Shown here: piece by piece, positions 24,607 through 31,753 of the stretch
Numbering within the stretch: position 1 is the stretch's first letter
Layout: each line of letters opens with the position of its first letter
Assembly: GCF_000521865.1 (NCBI RefSeq)
Contig: NZ_JAME01000041.1
Span: 1-34,859 of the forward strand
Reading direction: 5' to 3'
Source of the DNA: Roseivivax isoporae LMG 25204
GTDB lineage: Bacteria; Pseudomonadota; Alphaproteobacteria; Rhodobacterales; Rhodobacteraceae
Length of the DNA stretch: 34,859 nt
Program-made: the position numbers and the translations under genes
Notes under the pieces: model-generated
The model's input: only the letters and a program-made list of their open reading frames with translations
What the model was told of the DNA's origin: nothing
The model's database searches: none

Positions 24607-25860
24607 TCAGCGCAGCGCGCGCCCCTTGAGGATCGCCTCGGGGCCGAAGCGCGCGCGGATGCGGTCCGTCGCGCGTTCCGCCGCCGTGCGCCGCGCCGCC
24701 TGCGGATCGAGGAGATCGGGCGTCCGGTCGGCCTCGGCCTCGGGGCAGAGCTCGGAGAGGCCGACGCCCAGCAGACGGTAGGGGCGCCGTCCCTCGACCT
24801 GGTCGAAGAGCCCGCGCGCGGTGCGGTAGATGCGGTCGGCGATCTGCGTCGGGTCGCGCAGCGCCTGCCGGCGGGTCACCAGCGCAAAATCCGCGCGCTT
24901 GAGCTTCAGCACCACGACGCGGCCGGCGAGGCCCTTGGCCTTGGCGCGGTCCGCGACCTTTTCCGCCATGCGCCAGATGTGCCCGTCGAGGATGTCGGGG
25001 TCGCTCGTGTCCTCGTTGAAGGTCGTCTCGTTCGAGATCGACTTGACCGGGGCGTGCGGCGAGACGCGCCGCGTGTCCTGCCCCCGGGCGAGGTGCCAGA
25101 GCCGCGTACCCATGGAGCCGAACCGCTGGGTGAGGTCGCGCGCGTCCCAGCGCCGCAGATCGGCGAAGGTGGCGATGCCCGCGCGCGACAGGCTTTCGCG
25201 CCCGGCCTCGCCCACGCCCCAGATCAGCCCCACGGGCCTGTCGGCGAGGAAATCCATGGTCTCGGCCGCACCGATCACCGAGAAGCCGTGCGGCTTGTCG
25301 AGATCCGAGGCGATCTTGGCCAGGAACTTGTTGTGAGAGAGCCCGATCGATCCGGTGATGCCCAGCTCGTCGCGCATCCGCCGCACGAGCCGTGCCAGCA
25401 TCGCCGCCGGCGGCGCGCCGTGCAGCCGCGCTGTGCCCGAGAGGTCGAGGAACGCCTCGTCGAGCGACAGCGGCTCGATCGCCGGCGTCAGATCCTCCAT
25501 CATCGCTCGGATGGCGCGGCTGACCTCGGCATAGACCGCCATGCGGGGTTTGATGACGACCGCGTCCGGGCAGAGCTTCAGCGCCTTGAACATGGGCATG
25601 GCCGAGCGCACGCCGCGGATGCGCGCCACGTAGCAGGCGGTGGACACTACACCGCGCCGCCCGCCTCCGATGATCACCGGCTTGTCGGCAAGCGAGGGGT
25701 CGTCGCGCTTCTCGACCGAGGCATAGAAGGCGTCGCAGTCCATGTGCGCGACCGAGAGGTCCCAGAGCTCCGGATGCTGCACGATTCGCGGGCTGCGGCA
25801 CCTGGGGCAGCGCGTCCCGGCATCGAAGCCGGTCGAACAGTCACGACAGAGGGCTGGCAT
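24607..25860 (-). CDS. dinB: DNA polymerase IV with N-terminal zinc ribbon
   Basis: A Y-family translesion polymerase of 417 residues. An N-terminal Cys4 cluster (Cys5, Cys8, Cys18, Cys21) forms a probable zinc ribbon, as seen in many Rhodobacterales DinB proteins. The palm carries the metal-binding Asp41 (AHMDCDAFYASVE) and the Asp134-Glu135 pair (LSLDEAFLDLSG). Then follow the SIGLSHNKFLAKIASD region and the little-finger domain. The frame is open 23 codons upstream, but the ATG at 25860 leads directly into the zinc ribbon, so I start there; no clear ribosome-binding site helps. No SOS box (GTTC-N7-GTTC type) is visible in the short 62-nt divergent gap to the NUDIX gene. Confidence 0.95.
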   Translation of the reverse strand: MPALCRDCSTGFDAGTRCPRCRSPRIVQHPELWDLSVAHMDCDAFYASVEKRDDPSLADKPVIIGGGRRGVVSTACYVARIRGVRSAMPMFKALKLCPDAVVIKPRMAVYAEVSRAIRAMMEDLTPAIEPLSLDEAFLDLSGTARLHGAPPAAMLARLVRRMRDELGITGSIGLSHNKFLAKIASDLDKPHGFSVIGAAETMDFLADRPVGLIWGVGEAGRESLSRAGIATFADLRRWDARDLTQRFGSMGTRLWHLARGQDTRRVSPHAPVKSISNETTFNEDTSDPDILDGHIWRMAEKVADRAKAKGLAGRVVVLKLKRADFALVTRRQALRDPTQIADRIYRTARGLFDQVEGRRPYRLLGVGLSELCPEAEADRTPDLLDPQAARRTAAERATDRIRARFGPEAILKGRALR

Positions 25861-25922
25861 TGGGTCGCTGACATCGGCAGGGGAACTAGGTCGGAGGATA
25901 AGGTGTCGGAACGGGATACGCC

Positions 25923-26351
25923 ATGGCACAGAACGGAACGGATCGCTTCGGCGGCGCGAAGGTGCTGGTTTTCATGGGAGAGCGGCTGCTGGTCATCCGC
26001 CGCGACCTGCGCGACGACATCCCGTGGCCGGGCGCGCTGGATTTGCCCGGCGGCGGCCGCGAAGGCGACGAGAGCCCCGAACGCTGCGCGCTGCGGGAAA
26101 CCGAGGAGGAGGTGGGCCTGGTGCTGTCCGAGGCGGACCTGTCCTGGCGCGCGCTCCACCTTTCGGCGACGCTGCGCAGCTGGTTCTTCGCCGCGCGCCT
26201 TCCGCCCGAGCGCGTGCGGGACGTGCGCCTGGGCGACGAGGGGACGGAATGGCTGCTGATAGATCCGGGGGCGCTCTTGCGCCGGACGGACACGATCCCG
26301 CACCACATGGCCATGCTCGAGCGCTACCTGGCCGAGACTCATTGCACGTGA
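25923..26351 (+). CDS. NUDIX hydrolase
   Basis: The 142-residue protein carries a complete Nudix box at about 44-66: Gly44, Glu50, Arg58-Glu59, Glu62-Glu63 and Gly65, within LPGGGREGDESPERCALRET. It differs only in having Thr where a hydrophobic residue is usual (RET). Such enzymes hydrolyse nucleoside diphosphates linked to another moiety. With a DNA polymerase beside it and a basic inner helix, a nucleotide-sanitising role is possible but unproved. GGGATACGCC precedes the ATG, a weak site. It is divergent from dinB. Confidence 0.88.
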   Translation: MAQNGTDRFGGAKVLVFMGERLLVIRRDLRDDIPWPGALDLPGGGREGDESPERCALRETEEEVGLVLSEADLSWRALHLSATLRSWFFAARLPPERVRDVRLGDEGTEWLLIDPGALLRRTDTIPHHMAMLERYLAETHCT

Positions 26352-26470: not shown

Positions 26471-26797
26471 TCAGGCAGCGCGGTTCCAGAAAAAGTGCGC
26501 GATGCGCTGGTGCAGGGGCAGGACGTCCTCGGGCGCGGTGTCGCGCACCCGCGGACGCAGCCGCGAGCGCAGTGCGCAGGGCCGGTCGAGCGAGCGCAGC
26601 GCGTCAGCCTTGAGTCCGGCGATGGCCTCCTCCTCGCTCGTGTCGAGCGGCGCGGCGAAGCGTCCGGGCACGCGCATGCGGCCTTCGTCGGTGTCGAGCG
26701 TCACGAGCGCGTCGAACGCCTCGGCCTCGGGCGTGTAGCGCAGGCCGTCAACGGAAACGGCCACGGGATGTGTCTTGGTACCGGTCGCCAGGGTCAT
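26471..26797 (-). CDS. Small orphan protein downstream of pyrF
   Basis: A 108-residue soluble protein I cannot assign to a family. It has an acidic middle (DTDEGRMRVPGRF, LDTSEEEAIAGLK), then a basic stretch (RSRLRPRVRDT), and ends FFWNRAA. No signal peptide or membrane helix is seen. A perfect GAGGAGG stands 7 nt before the ATG, and the codon pattern matches its neighbours, so it is very likely a real gene. It lies 79 nt after pyrF on the same strand, with an 11-bp-stem hairpin between them. Cotranscription with pyrF is possible. I give it no function. Confidence 0.75.
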   Translation of the reverse strand: MTLATGTKTHPVAVSVDGLRYTPEAEAFDALVTLDTDEGRMRVPGRFAAPLDTSEEEAIAGLKADALRSLDRPCALRSRLRPRVRDTAPEDVLPLHQRIAHFFWNRAA

Positions 26798-26876: not shown

Positions 26877-27509
26877 TCAGCCGAGCGCCGCGACGAGGTC
26901 CCGCGCCGCCTGCCGCGGATCGGACGCGCCCCAGACCGCGCGCCCGACGATGAGGTGGTCGGCCGAGGCGACCGGATCGCCGCCGCTCTCGGTCACGATC
27001 AGCGCGTCCGCGGCTCGCGCGCGCACCGCCGCGACGGCCTCCTGCGGAACCACGACACCGTCGGCCCCGGCCTCGAGGGCGCGCACGGCCCGTTCGGCCG
27101 CGATCTCGGTCACGCTGCCGCCGGCGACGAGGCAGGCGTCGAGCGCCGTCCGGTCGAGATCCGCGAGGACCGTCACCGCGAGGATGCGCGTGGCGGTGCC
27201 GCGTGCGCCGGCCATCGCCGCAGCCACCACGTGCGGGTCGCCGTGCACCGTCAGGCACTCGACCTCGAACTGCGCGAGGCCCTGCACCGCGGCCTCGATC
27301 GCCGCCGGCCGGTCGAAGAGTTTCATGTCGAGAAGGATGCACTTGCCGTGTTCCTGGCGCAGCTCGTTGGCCAGCGCGAGCCCGCCGCCCGTCAGCATCC
27401 CGAGGCCCACGCGGTAGAATGTCACCGCGTCGCCAAGCCGTTCGGCGACCGCGAGACCCGCGAGGGCGTCGCTCACGTCGAGTGAGACGATGAGTTTTTC
27501 TCGGGGCAT
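26877..27509 (-). CDS. pyrF: Orotidine 5'-phosphate decarboxylase-like protein, atypical
   Basis: The 210-residue protein belongs to the OMP decarboxylase superfamily, normally decarboxylating OMP to UMP. Recognisable are LIVSLDVSD with Asp11, the LDMKLFD core with Asp61, Lys63 and Asp66, LTVHGDPH, and HLIVGR with Arg190. Two features are odd. The catalytic Lys expected in FYKxGL is Arg33 (FYRVGL), and the segment between IVT and ADHLIVGR is only about 11 residues (ESGGDPVAS). There, normal enzymes carry a longer PGxRP...DQxR..TP phosphate-gripping loop. The protein is correspondingly shorter than the usual ~230. It may be a diverged paralogue or weak enzyme; a second pyrF elsewhere would be expected. 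An upstream ATG at 27539 with GGAG is also possible (+10 residues). Confidence 0.8.
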   Translation of the reverse strand: MPREKLIVSLDVSDALAGLAVAERLGDAVTFYRVGLGMLTGGGLALANELRQEHGKCILLDMKLFDRPAAIEAAVQGLAQFEVECLTVHGDPHVVAAAMAGARGTATRILAVTVLADLDRTALDACLVAGGSVTEIAAERAVRALEAGADGVVVPQEAVAAVRARAADALIVTESGGDPVASADHLIVGRAVWGASDPRQAARDLVAALG

Positions 27510-27672: not shown

Positions 27673-28950
27673 ATGGCCGACGAGAAGCAGCCCCCCCAAT
27701 CATCGCAGACCGAGCAGAGTTCCGGAGGTTCGGCGACCGCGCGCCCCGCCGGTCTTGCGCCGATGATCCTCGGATCCGGCGTGGTCGTCGCGCTCGCGAT
27801 CGCGATCGTCCTGAACCTGTCCTCGGGCGGGGGTGACGTCGAGACCGCCTCGGACGTGCCGGCGAGCGACGAGACCGCGTCCGAGAACGCCGAAGGCGAC
27901 AGCCTCGACAGCGGCATGGCCGGCGCCGAGGCCGAAGAGGGCACGGGTGTCGCCGAGGACGAGAGCGACGCGCCGGCCGAGGGCGGCGACGATACCGCCG
28001 CGGCCGAGGATGGCCAGTCGAGCGGGGGCGAGAGCGAGGGCGCCGAAGCGCAGGGCGAAACGTCCGAGGGTGACGAGGACACCGCCGCGGCGGATGCGGA
28101 GACGCAGCAGGACACTTCGGGCGACGAGGCGCAGACCTCAGAAGGTGGCGATGACGCCGCCGCGGATGCCGAAAGCGAACAATCGGCGCAGTCGGATGAA
28201 GGTGCGGCCGACGCAGGCGACGGCTCCGGCCAGGAGGAGCAGGCGGCCGACGGCGGCCAGGGCGGAGCCACCGAGGTCGAGGGCGCGCAGTCGACCCAGT
28301 CGGGCGACGCCCCGGCCGGCGACGGTGACACGTCCGGCCAGCAGGACGGGTCGGAGCAGGCCGACGCCGGCGCGGCCGAGGACGTCGAGGGCGCGCAATC
28401 GACGCAATCGGGCGATGCCCCGGCGGATGACGGACAGTCCGAGGAGGGGTCGGACCAGCAGGCGTCGGGCGAGGCGGCCTCGGACGGCGCGGCCGCGACC
28501 GAGGCCACGTCCGGTCAGCAGCAGGCCCAGGGTGACCAGCAGCAGGGCGACCAGCAGGAGGAGACCTCTGGCCAGCAGGAGCAGTCTGCGGAGAGTGACC
28601 AGCAGGGCGAGTCGAGCGAGCAGGACGAGCAGGCCCAGGGCGGTCAGGAGGGCGACGCGTCCGGCGCACAGGAGCAGGCGCAGGATGACGCGCCCGGCGC
28701 ACAGGACCAGCAGGCCCAGGGTGAGCAGCAGGCCCAGGGTGAGCAGCAGGCCCAGGGTGACGCTGCCGGAAGCGAAGGCGGCGGCGACGAGATGAGCGTG
28801 TCCGAGGCGGCGATGCGCGCCATGGAGGCGGCGCAGAGCGCGGCCGACGCCGCGGACGAGGCGGCGCAGGCTGCGGAAGCCGCAGCACAGGCCGCGCAGG
28901 ACGCCTACGAGCGCCTGCGCGAGGCGAGCCAGACGCTGACCGGTCAATAA
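27673..28950 (+). CDS. Single-pass membrane protein with long acidic Gln-rich repeat domain
   Basis: I do not recognise this 425-residue protein. Residues 1-27 are polar and Gln/Ser-rich, 28-49 form one hydrophobic helix (LAPMILGSGVVVALAIAIVLNL), and about 50-370 are almost entirely Glu, Asp, Gln, Ala, Gly and Ser. The C-terminal ~52 residues are an Ala-rich amphipathic helix (SVSEAAMRAMEAAQ onward, ending ASQTLTGQ). Basic residues come before the helix and a strongly negative tail after it, so the tail is predicted periplasmic. Repeats include VEGAQSTQSGDAPA (two copies) and (D/E)QQAQG (three in tandem). The long frame extends 61 codons upstream, but GGAG lies just before the ATG at 27673. 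A strong terminator follows, and the promoter at 27614 suggests a monocistronic gene. A disordered cation-binding or spacer role is conceivable but not shown. Confidence 0.82.
   Translation: MADEKQPPQSSQTEQSSGGSATARPAGLAPMILGSGVVVALAIAIVLNLSSGGGDVETASDVPASDETASENAEGDSLDSGMAGAEAEEGTGVAEDESDAPAEGGDDTAAAEDGQSSGGESEGAEAQGETSEGDEDTAAADAETQQDTSGDEAQTSEGGDDAAADAESEQSAQSDEGAADAGDGSGQEEQAADGGQGGATEVEGAQSTQSGDAPAGDGDTSGQQDGSEQADAGAAEDVEGAQSTQSGDAPADDGQSEEGSDQQASGEAASDGAAATEATSGQQQAQGDQQQGDQQEETSGQQEQSAESDQQGESSEQDEQAQGGQEGDASGAQEQAQDDAPGAQDQQAQGEQQAQGEQQAQGDAAGSEGGGDEMSVSEAAMRAMEAAQSAADAADEAAQAAEAAAQAAQDAYERLREASQTLTGQ
28276..28434 (+). repeat. Two-copy 51-bp repeat inside the acidic gene
   Basis: Copies at 28276-28326 and 28384-28434 encode VEGAQSTQSGDAPAGDG and VEGAQSTQSGDAPADDG, 108 bp apart start to start. 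They differ mainly at third codon positions, so the peptide has been kept while the DNA drifted. Confidence 0.85.
28705..28758 (+). repeat. Three tandem 18-bp repeats inside the acidic gene
   Basis: Three head-to-tail units (28705-28722, 28723-28740, 28741-28758) of GAGCAGCAGGCCCAGGGT, the first with GAC for GAG, encode (D/E)QQAQG. Units two and three are identical, pointing to recent slippage or unequal crossing-over. Copy number may vary between strains. Confidence 0.9.

Positions 28951-29134: not shown

Positions 29135-31753
<2,619 letters not shown>

Follow-up and report, generated by a model that had tools for sequence, protein, structure and literature searches.

What becomes of an OMP decarboxylase when part of its active site is gone and its reading frame stays open? 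The question is raised by pyrF1, a degenerate type-1 OMP decarboxylase homologue of 210 amino acids (P0001) encoded at positions 26877 to 27509, minus strand, of the window, by which we mean the whole analysed stretch of 34,859 nucleotides from Roseivivax isoporae LMG 25204. OMP decarboxylase is a textbook case in enzymology, its loop and charge network having been studied one residue at a time; it is these parts that evolution in nature has apparently removed here, probably in parallel, once a foreign enzyme had taken over. The reading that we consider best, with a probability of roughly 0.6, is a displaced OMP decarboxylase that survives as a pseudoenzyme.

The Lys-Asp-Lys-Asp charge network of pyrF1 is incomplete. 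Its first lysine is replaced by Arg33 (codon CGC, positions 27411 to 27413, minus strand) within FYRVGL, and the remaining three members, Asp61, Lys63 and Asp66, are retained in DMKLFD (27312 to 27329, minus strand), followed by Arg67 where all 90 canonical relatives carry Ile. The phosphate-gripper loop is reduced to a remnant of nine residues (26964 to 26990, minus strand) between the IVT strand (residues 171-173) and ADHLIVGR, compared with 26 residues in the canonical copies of two other Roseivivax genomes (G004 and G005); both PGxRP and DQKR..TP are missing, and with them the loop Gln and Arg. The original prediction had described these departures from the letters of the DNA, and they hold, as does its statement that the frame is intact (ATG to TGA, zero internal stops); its estimate of about 11 residues between IVT and ADHLIVGR was too high. 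In our alignment, both Lys and both Asp of the network, as well as Gln and Arg in the loop, occur in 90/90 canonical relatives, a set made up of 85 of the 86 loci supplied (one, too short, was left out) and the five canonical members of the genus, and including the best 80 of 563 relatives from a scan of named genomes. Given this uniformity, the alignment indicates that the departures in pyrF1 are not chance. Arg190 is retained, as is Asp11 (27477 to 27479, minus strand), which we take to be a pocket residue and which all four degenerate copies of the genus retain, and the G+C content by codon position (82/50/91 %) is still gene-like. With 91.1 bits against the Pfam OMPdecase profile (cut-off 27), the protein belongs to the superfamily, and it scores under the curated cut-offs of NCBIfam PRK00230 (129.8 bits, cut-off 193) and TIGR01740 (77.2 bits, cut-off 92.3). 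It thus shares with type-1 PyrF (PRK00230 / TIGR01740; PDB 1dbt, 1eix) its superfamily, its genomic position, DMKLFD and the invariant residues described below, but differs in the replaced lysine, the missing loop and the low family scores.

The neighbourhood of pyrF1 is that of the genus. The gene order clpB-pyrF-orf108-NUDIX-dinB-SDR is common to Roseivivax, and tblastn found clpB, dinB and SDR around pyrF in all nine genus genomes, the window genome included. The two syntenic anchors are clpB (29135 to 31753, plus strand; named by eye, with an internal ATG of the listed ORF taken as its start) and a dinB-like Y-family polymerase gene (24607 to 25929, minus strand). Between dinB and pyrF1 lie a NUDIX hydrolase gene (25923 to 26351, plus strand), with tblastn matches in 7/9 genomes, and the hypothetical orf108 (26471 to 26797, minus strand; no Pfam match), with matches in 8/9, own genome included in both counts. 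Because synteny from clpB to dinB extends across the genus, the window gene is the original pyrF, the positional orthologue of the ordinary gene and vertically inherited. Paralogy by duplication, one of the options of the original prediction, is thereby ruled out; the second OMP decarboxylase gene is of type 2 and lies elsewhere. The proteins of the eight other genus genomes are 88-93 % identical to ClpB and 80-85 % identical to DinB of the window, and just 47-58 % identical to its PyrF. Between pyrF1 and clpB lies a divergent gene for an acidic low-complexity protein of 425 amino acids (27673 to 28950, plus strand) that has no Pfam match and no tblastn match in the pyrF regions of the other eight genomes; by eye, long repetitive frames occupy this place in G003 and G005.

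A search of the full genome for a second pyrF, which had been proposed as a check, was positive. In the window assembly (G000; 4.9 Mb, 203 contigs, 99.85 % complete), a whole-genome profile search returned two PF00215 matches, pyrF1 and C10:78459-79112. The latter belongs to an intact type-2 PyrF gene (C10:78423-79187) that scores 245.2 bits against TIGR02127 (cut-off 110.6) and contains KPQ and DAKRGDIG, presumably motifs with functional roles in type-2 PyrF. The type-2 family (TIGR02127, pyrF_sub2) shares Pfam PF00215 with pyrF1 and is the presumed replacement in G000, but it is a separate subfamily with motifs of its own, and the window protein has no match to TIGR02127 at E values up to 1. 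By eye, the type-2 gene of G000 sits between minC/minD-like genes and a gene for a TRAP-type solute-binding protein (L116, 6019-9941), a setting not seen around the type-2 genes of the three other Roseivivax genomes that carry one.

Within the genus, the presence of a type-2 PyrF coincides with the state of the old gene. Type-2 PyrF occurs in 4/9 genomes (G000, G001, G003 and G006), and these are exactly the ones with a broken PyrF1; the five without it are all canonical. The damage differs from copy to copy: G000 has Arg33 and no loop, G001 retains the first Lys and has DLKLYE and a changed loop, G003 has FYRIGL, DLRLGG and no loop, and G006 has FYRIGL, DMTLGG and no loop. All four frames are open, the G003 copy (L011, 2109) having ATC at the expected ATG, preceded by a purine-rich stretch, and no in-frame ATG, GTG or TTG. 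Among 14 aligned positions that we take to be ligand sites, 8, 5, 9 and 10 are lost in G000, G001, G003 and G006, respectively, and 0 of 14 in each of the five canonical members; losses concentrate only weakly at these positions (Fisher p 0.03, 0.20, 0.14 and 0.02). Of 103 invariant columns, 38 are retained in all four degenerate copies, 28 of them in the N-terminal half. Most of what is conserved thus sits N-terminally in the barrel and includes Phe-Tyr, Gly-Leu, Met-Leu-Thr-x-Gly, Gly-Lys, Asp14 and Asp64 (G005 numbering).

How often did this happen? In a type-2 tree of 23 rows, G001, G003 and G006 formed a clade (98/99) with G365, G267 and G825 next, and G000 joined G835. Forcing the four Roseivivax genes together was rejected (AU p = 7e-5), and type-2 PyrF was therefore gained at least twice in the genus. 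No neighbours were common to the type-2 genes across the four genomes, in about 16 kb around each and with crude gene calls. The canonical G005, which has no type-2 gene, forms a group with G001, G003 and G006 that leaves out G000 (98.9/88 on eight genes, 97.1/90 on six). A clade of the four degenerate genomes with G005 outside was rejected in both of the arrangements tried (AU p 0.0003 and 0.026; 0.0014 and 0.049), the SH value for the last of these (AU 0.049) being 0.06. The PyrF1 tree itself favours the four degenerate copies together, a grouping that could stem from long-branch attraction; it just rejects G005 beside G001 (p 0.0498) and does not reject G005 outside G001, G003 and G006 (p 0.25). 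We read this as probably two independent losses of the active site, a point less secure than the two or more gains. Branching among G001, G003, G005 and G006 is not resolved by the species tree, which did not recover G003 and G006 as sisters, and the case for losses shared by these two therefore rests on the pyrF sequences themselves.

We next consider what the old protein could still do. By alignment, pyrF1 lacks what we take to be the counterparts of yeast K59, Q215/Y217 and S154, and the G003 and G006 copies additionally lack those of K93 and D96. In the yeast enzyme, D91A, K93A and D96'A show no activity, K59A lowers kcat/Km 1e5-fold, and Q215A/Y217F and S154A cost 4.8 and 5.8 kcal/mol, respectively (studies reviewed in PMC12874384); these variants do not include Lys to Arg. 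With these key residues missing, the old protein is very unlikely to decarboxylate OMP, above all in G003 and G006, and a phosphorylated ligand would be unlikely without the gripper. Our preferred guess, and it is a guess, is a protein-binding or structural role.

The selection acting on the broken copies can be approached through the G003 and G006 genes. Synonymous sites are saturated and a free omega fit drove branch times to their bounds; because of this, we used comparisons with omega=1 and a clock taken from neighbouring genes. Both carry the non-canonical residues Arg36, Gly68, Gly69, Glu73 and Ala75 (G005 numbering), so that the network was most likely already missing from their common ancestral gene. 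They are 68.6/75.5/41.7 % identical at codon positions 1/2/3. Omega=1 was rejected for the pair as a whole (2dlnL 109.9), for the first 106 alignment columns (90.7) and for the rest (19.5), and also on the tree (130.6). Since the losses most likely predate the split of the two genes and neutrality is rejected, the broken protein was still constrained afterwards, and this constraint lies mostly in the N-terminal half. The neighbour-gene clock gave rough omega values of 0.11-0.15 on the degenerate terminal branches, 0.76 on the stem of G003 and G006 and 0.03 on canonical branches. Omega=1 was rejected on each degenerate terminal branch (2dlnL 109-227), again by the rough clock and on branches that reach back beyond the loss. 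A scale of 2.89 was required for the clock fit, which was worse than the free one (lnL -4698 versus -4662), had some neighbour branch times at their bounds, and shares with the tree omega fit a tree on which G003 and G006 are sisters. Selection on the degenerate copies is relaxed yet present. For G000, constraint after the loss is inseparable from constraint before it because no close degenerate relative exists. The original view of divergence under constraint rather than decay thus stands for the related G003 and G006 copies and is not demonstrable for the window copy alone.

The strongest competitor, which we consider unlikely on balance, is the slow decay of a gene made redundant: type-2 PyrF would have replaced pyrF, no selection would be left, and high G+C would make stop codons rare. 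The relaxed omega and the lost start codon of G003 fit this account, and in G365, a genome with a type-2 PyrF, pyrF is gone from the clpB-dinB interval, a possible end point of staged decay. In neutral simulations, the frame stayed open after 100 substitutions in 20-31 % of runs at a mutational G+C of 0.66-0.75; because G+C-rich DNA keeps frames open in this way, an open frame by itself says little here. At the divergence of G003 and G006, however (57 % identity, 150-200 substitutions), it survived, according to the mutational G+C, in 0-16 % of runs, and four of four degenerate frames are open. Decay also fits poorly with third positions that are 41.7 % identical in genes whose first 106 columns keep 71 % amino-acid identity, and with the rejection of omega=1 in both halves. 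It is most plausible for the window copy and for G003 without its ATG, GTG or TTG start.

We return to the displaced pseudoenzyme. In xenologous gene displacement, pseudoenzymes can arise when a foreign enzyme takes over, catalysis being lost and the frame kept. A horizontally acquired type-2 PyrF (C10:78423-79187) would have taken over OMP decarboxylation and thereby released the old PyrF from catalytic constraint; the first Lys would then have gone, as would the phosphate-gripper loop, and the protein would have been retained as a folded barrel, catalytically dead or nearly so, whose N-terminal half may still be selected for a role other than OMP decarboxylation, for example in binding or structure. 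For the window strain, we infer that the type-2 PyrF is the OMP decarboxylase in vivo and that the old protein is inactive, folded and still has a role. Titles and abstract openings in the open-licence literature yielded no case of an OMP decarboxylase pseudoenzyme, displacement, moonlighting or inactive paralogue. More tentatively, and with the odds somewhat against it, PyrF might have a second, non-catalytic job, beyond the reach of the distantly related type-2 enzyme, that has kept the old protein after at least two independent gains and so produced convergent pseudoenzymes. If true, nature would have supplied, in the four strains, separation-of-function mutants of an essential enzyme, and the system in any case lets one ask whether PyrF does anything besides catalysis. 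For annotation, the label OMP decarboxylase is probably wrong for pyrF1, the working enzyme likely being encoded elsewhere in the genome.

Along with the pseudoenzyme, which is the best supported of its options, the original prediction had offered a new substrate or a weakened enzyme, and both find little support. We regard it as quite improbable that the barrel was turned to another, perhaps unphosphorylated substrate with the help of the retained Asp11 and Asp61 and a positively charged residue 33. Asp14 and Asp64 are indeed present, and position 36 is Lys or Arg, in all four degenerate copies (G005 numbering), but the rest of the pocket varies among them: two have Arg or Thr for Lys66, three have Glu or Gly for Asp69, and no new motif is common to the four. 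Nor does a family of other activity score near its cut-off. The 3-hexulose-6-phosphate synthase and KGPDC enzymes (HUMPS), which carry a DxKxxD motif, belong to the same Pfam family as the window protein, yet the latter reaches only 23.9 against HxlA (cut-off 200) and 16.3 against PRK13306 (cut-off 250). Less probable still is weak remaining OMP decarboxylase activity that supplements the type-2 enzyme: the window copy retains Asp61, Lys63, Asp66 and Arg190, and Arg33 preserves the charge, but the losses in yeast K59A, Q215A/Y217F and S154A (1e5-fold, 4.8 and 5.8 kcal/mol; PMC12874384) argue against appreciable activity, and the second Lys and last Asp are also lost in the relatives G003 and G006. 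An assembly or sequencing error has a negligible chance, since, draft though G000 is with its 203 contigs, like losses with open frames recur in the assemblies of four species and match the presence of type-2 PyrF.

Beyond the genus, type-2 PyrF was found in 5/394 genomes of the family, where it is rare, in 2/292 of the order and, above cut-off, in 17/289 of the class, the own genome included in each count. Among 26 genomes, all but G005 with a type-2 match, PyrF1 had no match in 14, a match above cut-off in seven (G005 among them) and one below in five, namely the four Roseivivax and a partial PyrF1 in G830. A canonical PyrF1 stands beside a type-2 match in six genomes (G835, G865, G253, G267, G461 and G086), some of them fragmented assemblies, and the link between type-2 PyrF and a broken PyrF1 is not strict outside Roseivivax. 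In the 394 family genomes, PyrF1 was above cut-off in 375, below it in seven (G000 included) and without a match in 12. Of the other six below cut-off, five candidates for a defective PyrF1 (G030, G228, G264, G342 and G397) were dismissed as fragments at contig ends or an N run, with canonical visible residues. The PyrF1 of G352 (L200, G352:C609:3140-3721; 212 codons) has an in-frame gap from the second helix to DxKxxD that removes Asp-Lys-Asp but spares a canonical first Lys and loop, and the genome gave no type-2 match; this is possibly an assembly collapse or a true deletion in a genome of 640 contigs that is 84 % complete. For seven of the 12 genomes without a match, a Pfam search led to the type-2 gene in G365 and to nothing in five (G103, G394, G092, G203 and G388; 91-99 % complete), where no PF00215 match at all was found. 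In the seventh, the near-complete Rhodobacteraceae genome G134, which has no type-1 or type-2 PyrF match, it led to a PF00215 protein (L201, G134:C32:17558-18154) that by eye is hexulose-phosphate-synthase-like.

Two genomes seem to show the reverse arrangement. The type-2 PyrF of G461 is split over two frames (L147/L148, G461:C2:856645-857402) and that of G267 contains one internal stop (L017, G267:C44:5771-6556), each in a genome whose PyrF1 is still canonical; the same redundancy seems here to have been resolved the other way. A supposed second degenerate PyrF1 beside the type-2 gene of G267, a 73.5-bit match, was rejected as a different member of the superfamily. This protein (L188, G267:C44:7720-8355) is encoded 1.2 kb from the broken type-2 gene and adjoins a gene named radical-SAM-like by eye; about 6 to 9 kb beyond it lie genes that by eye are pyrE- and pyrD-like.
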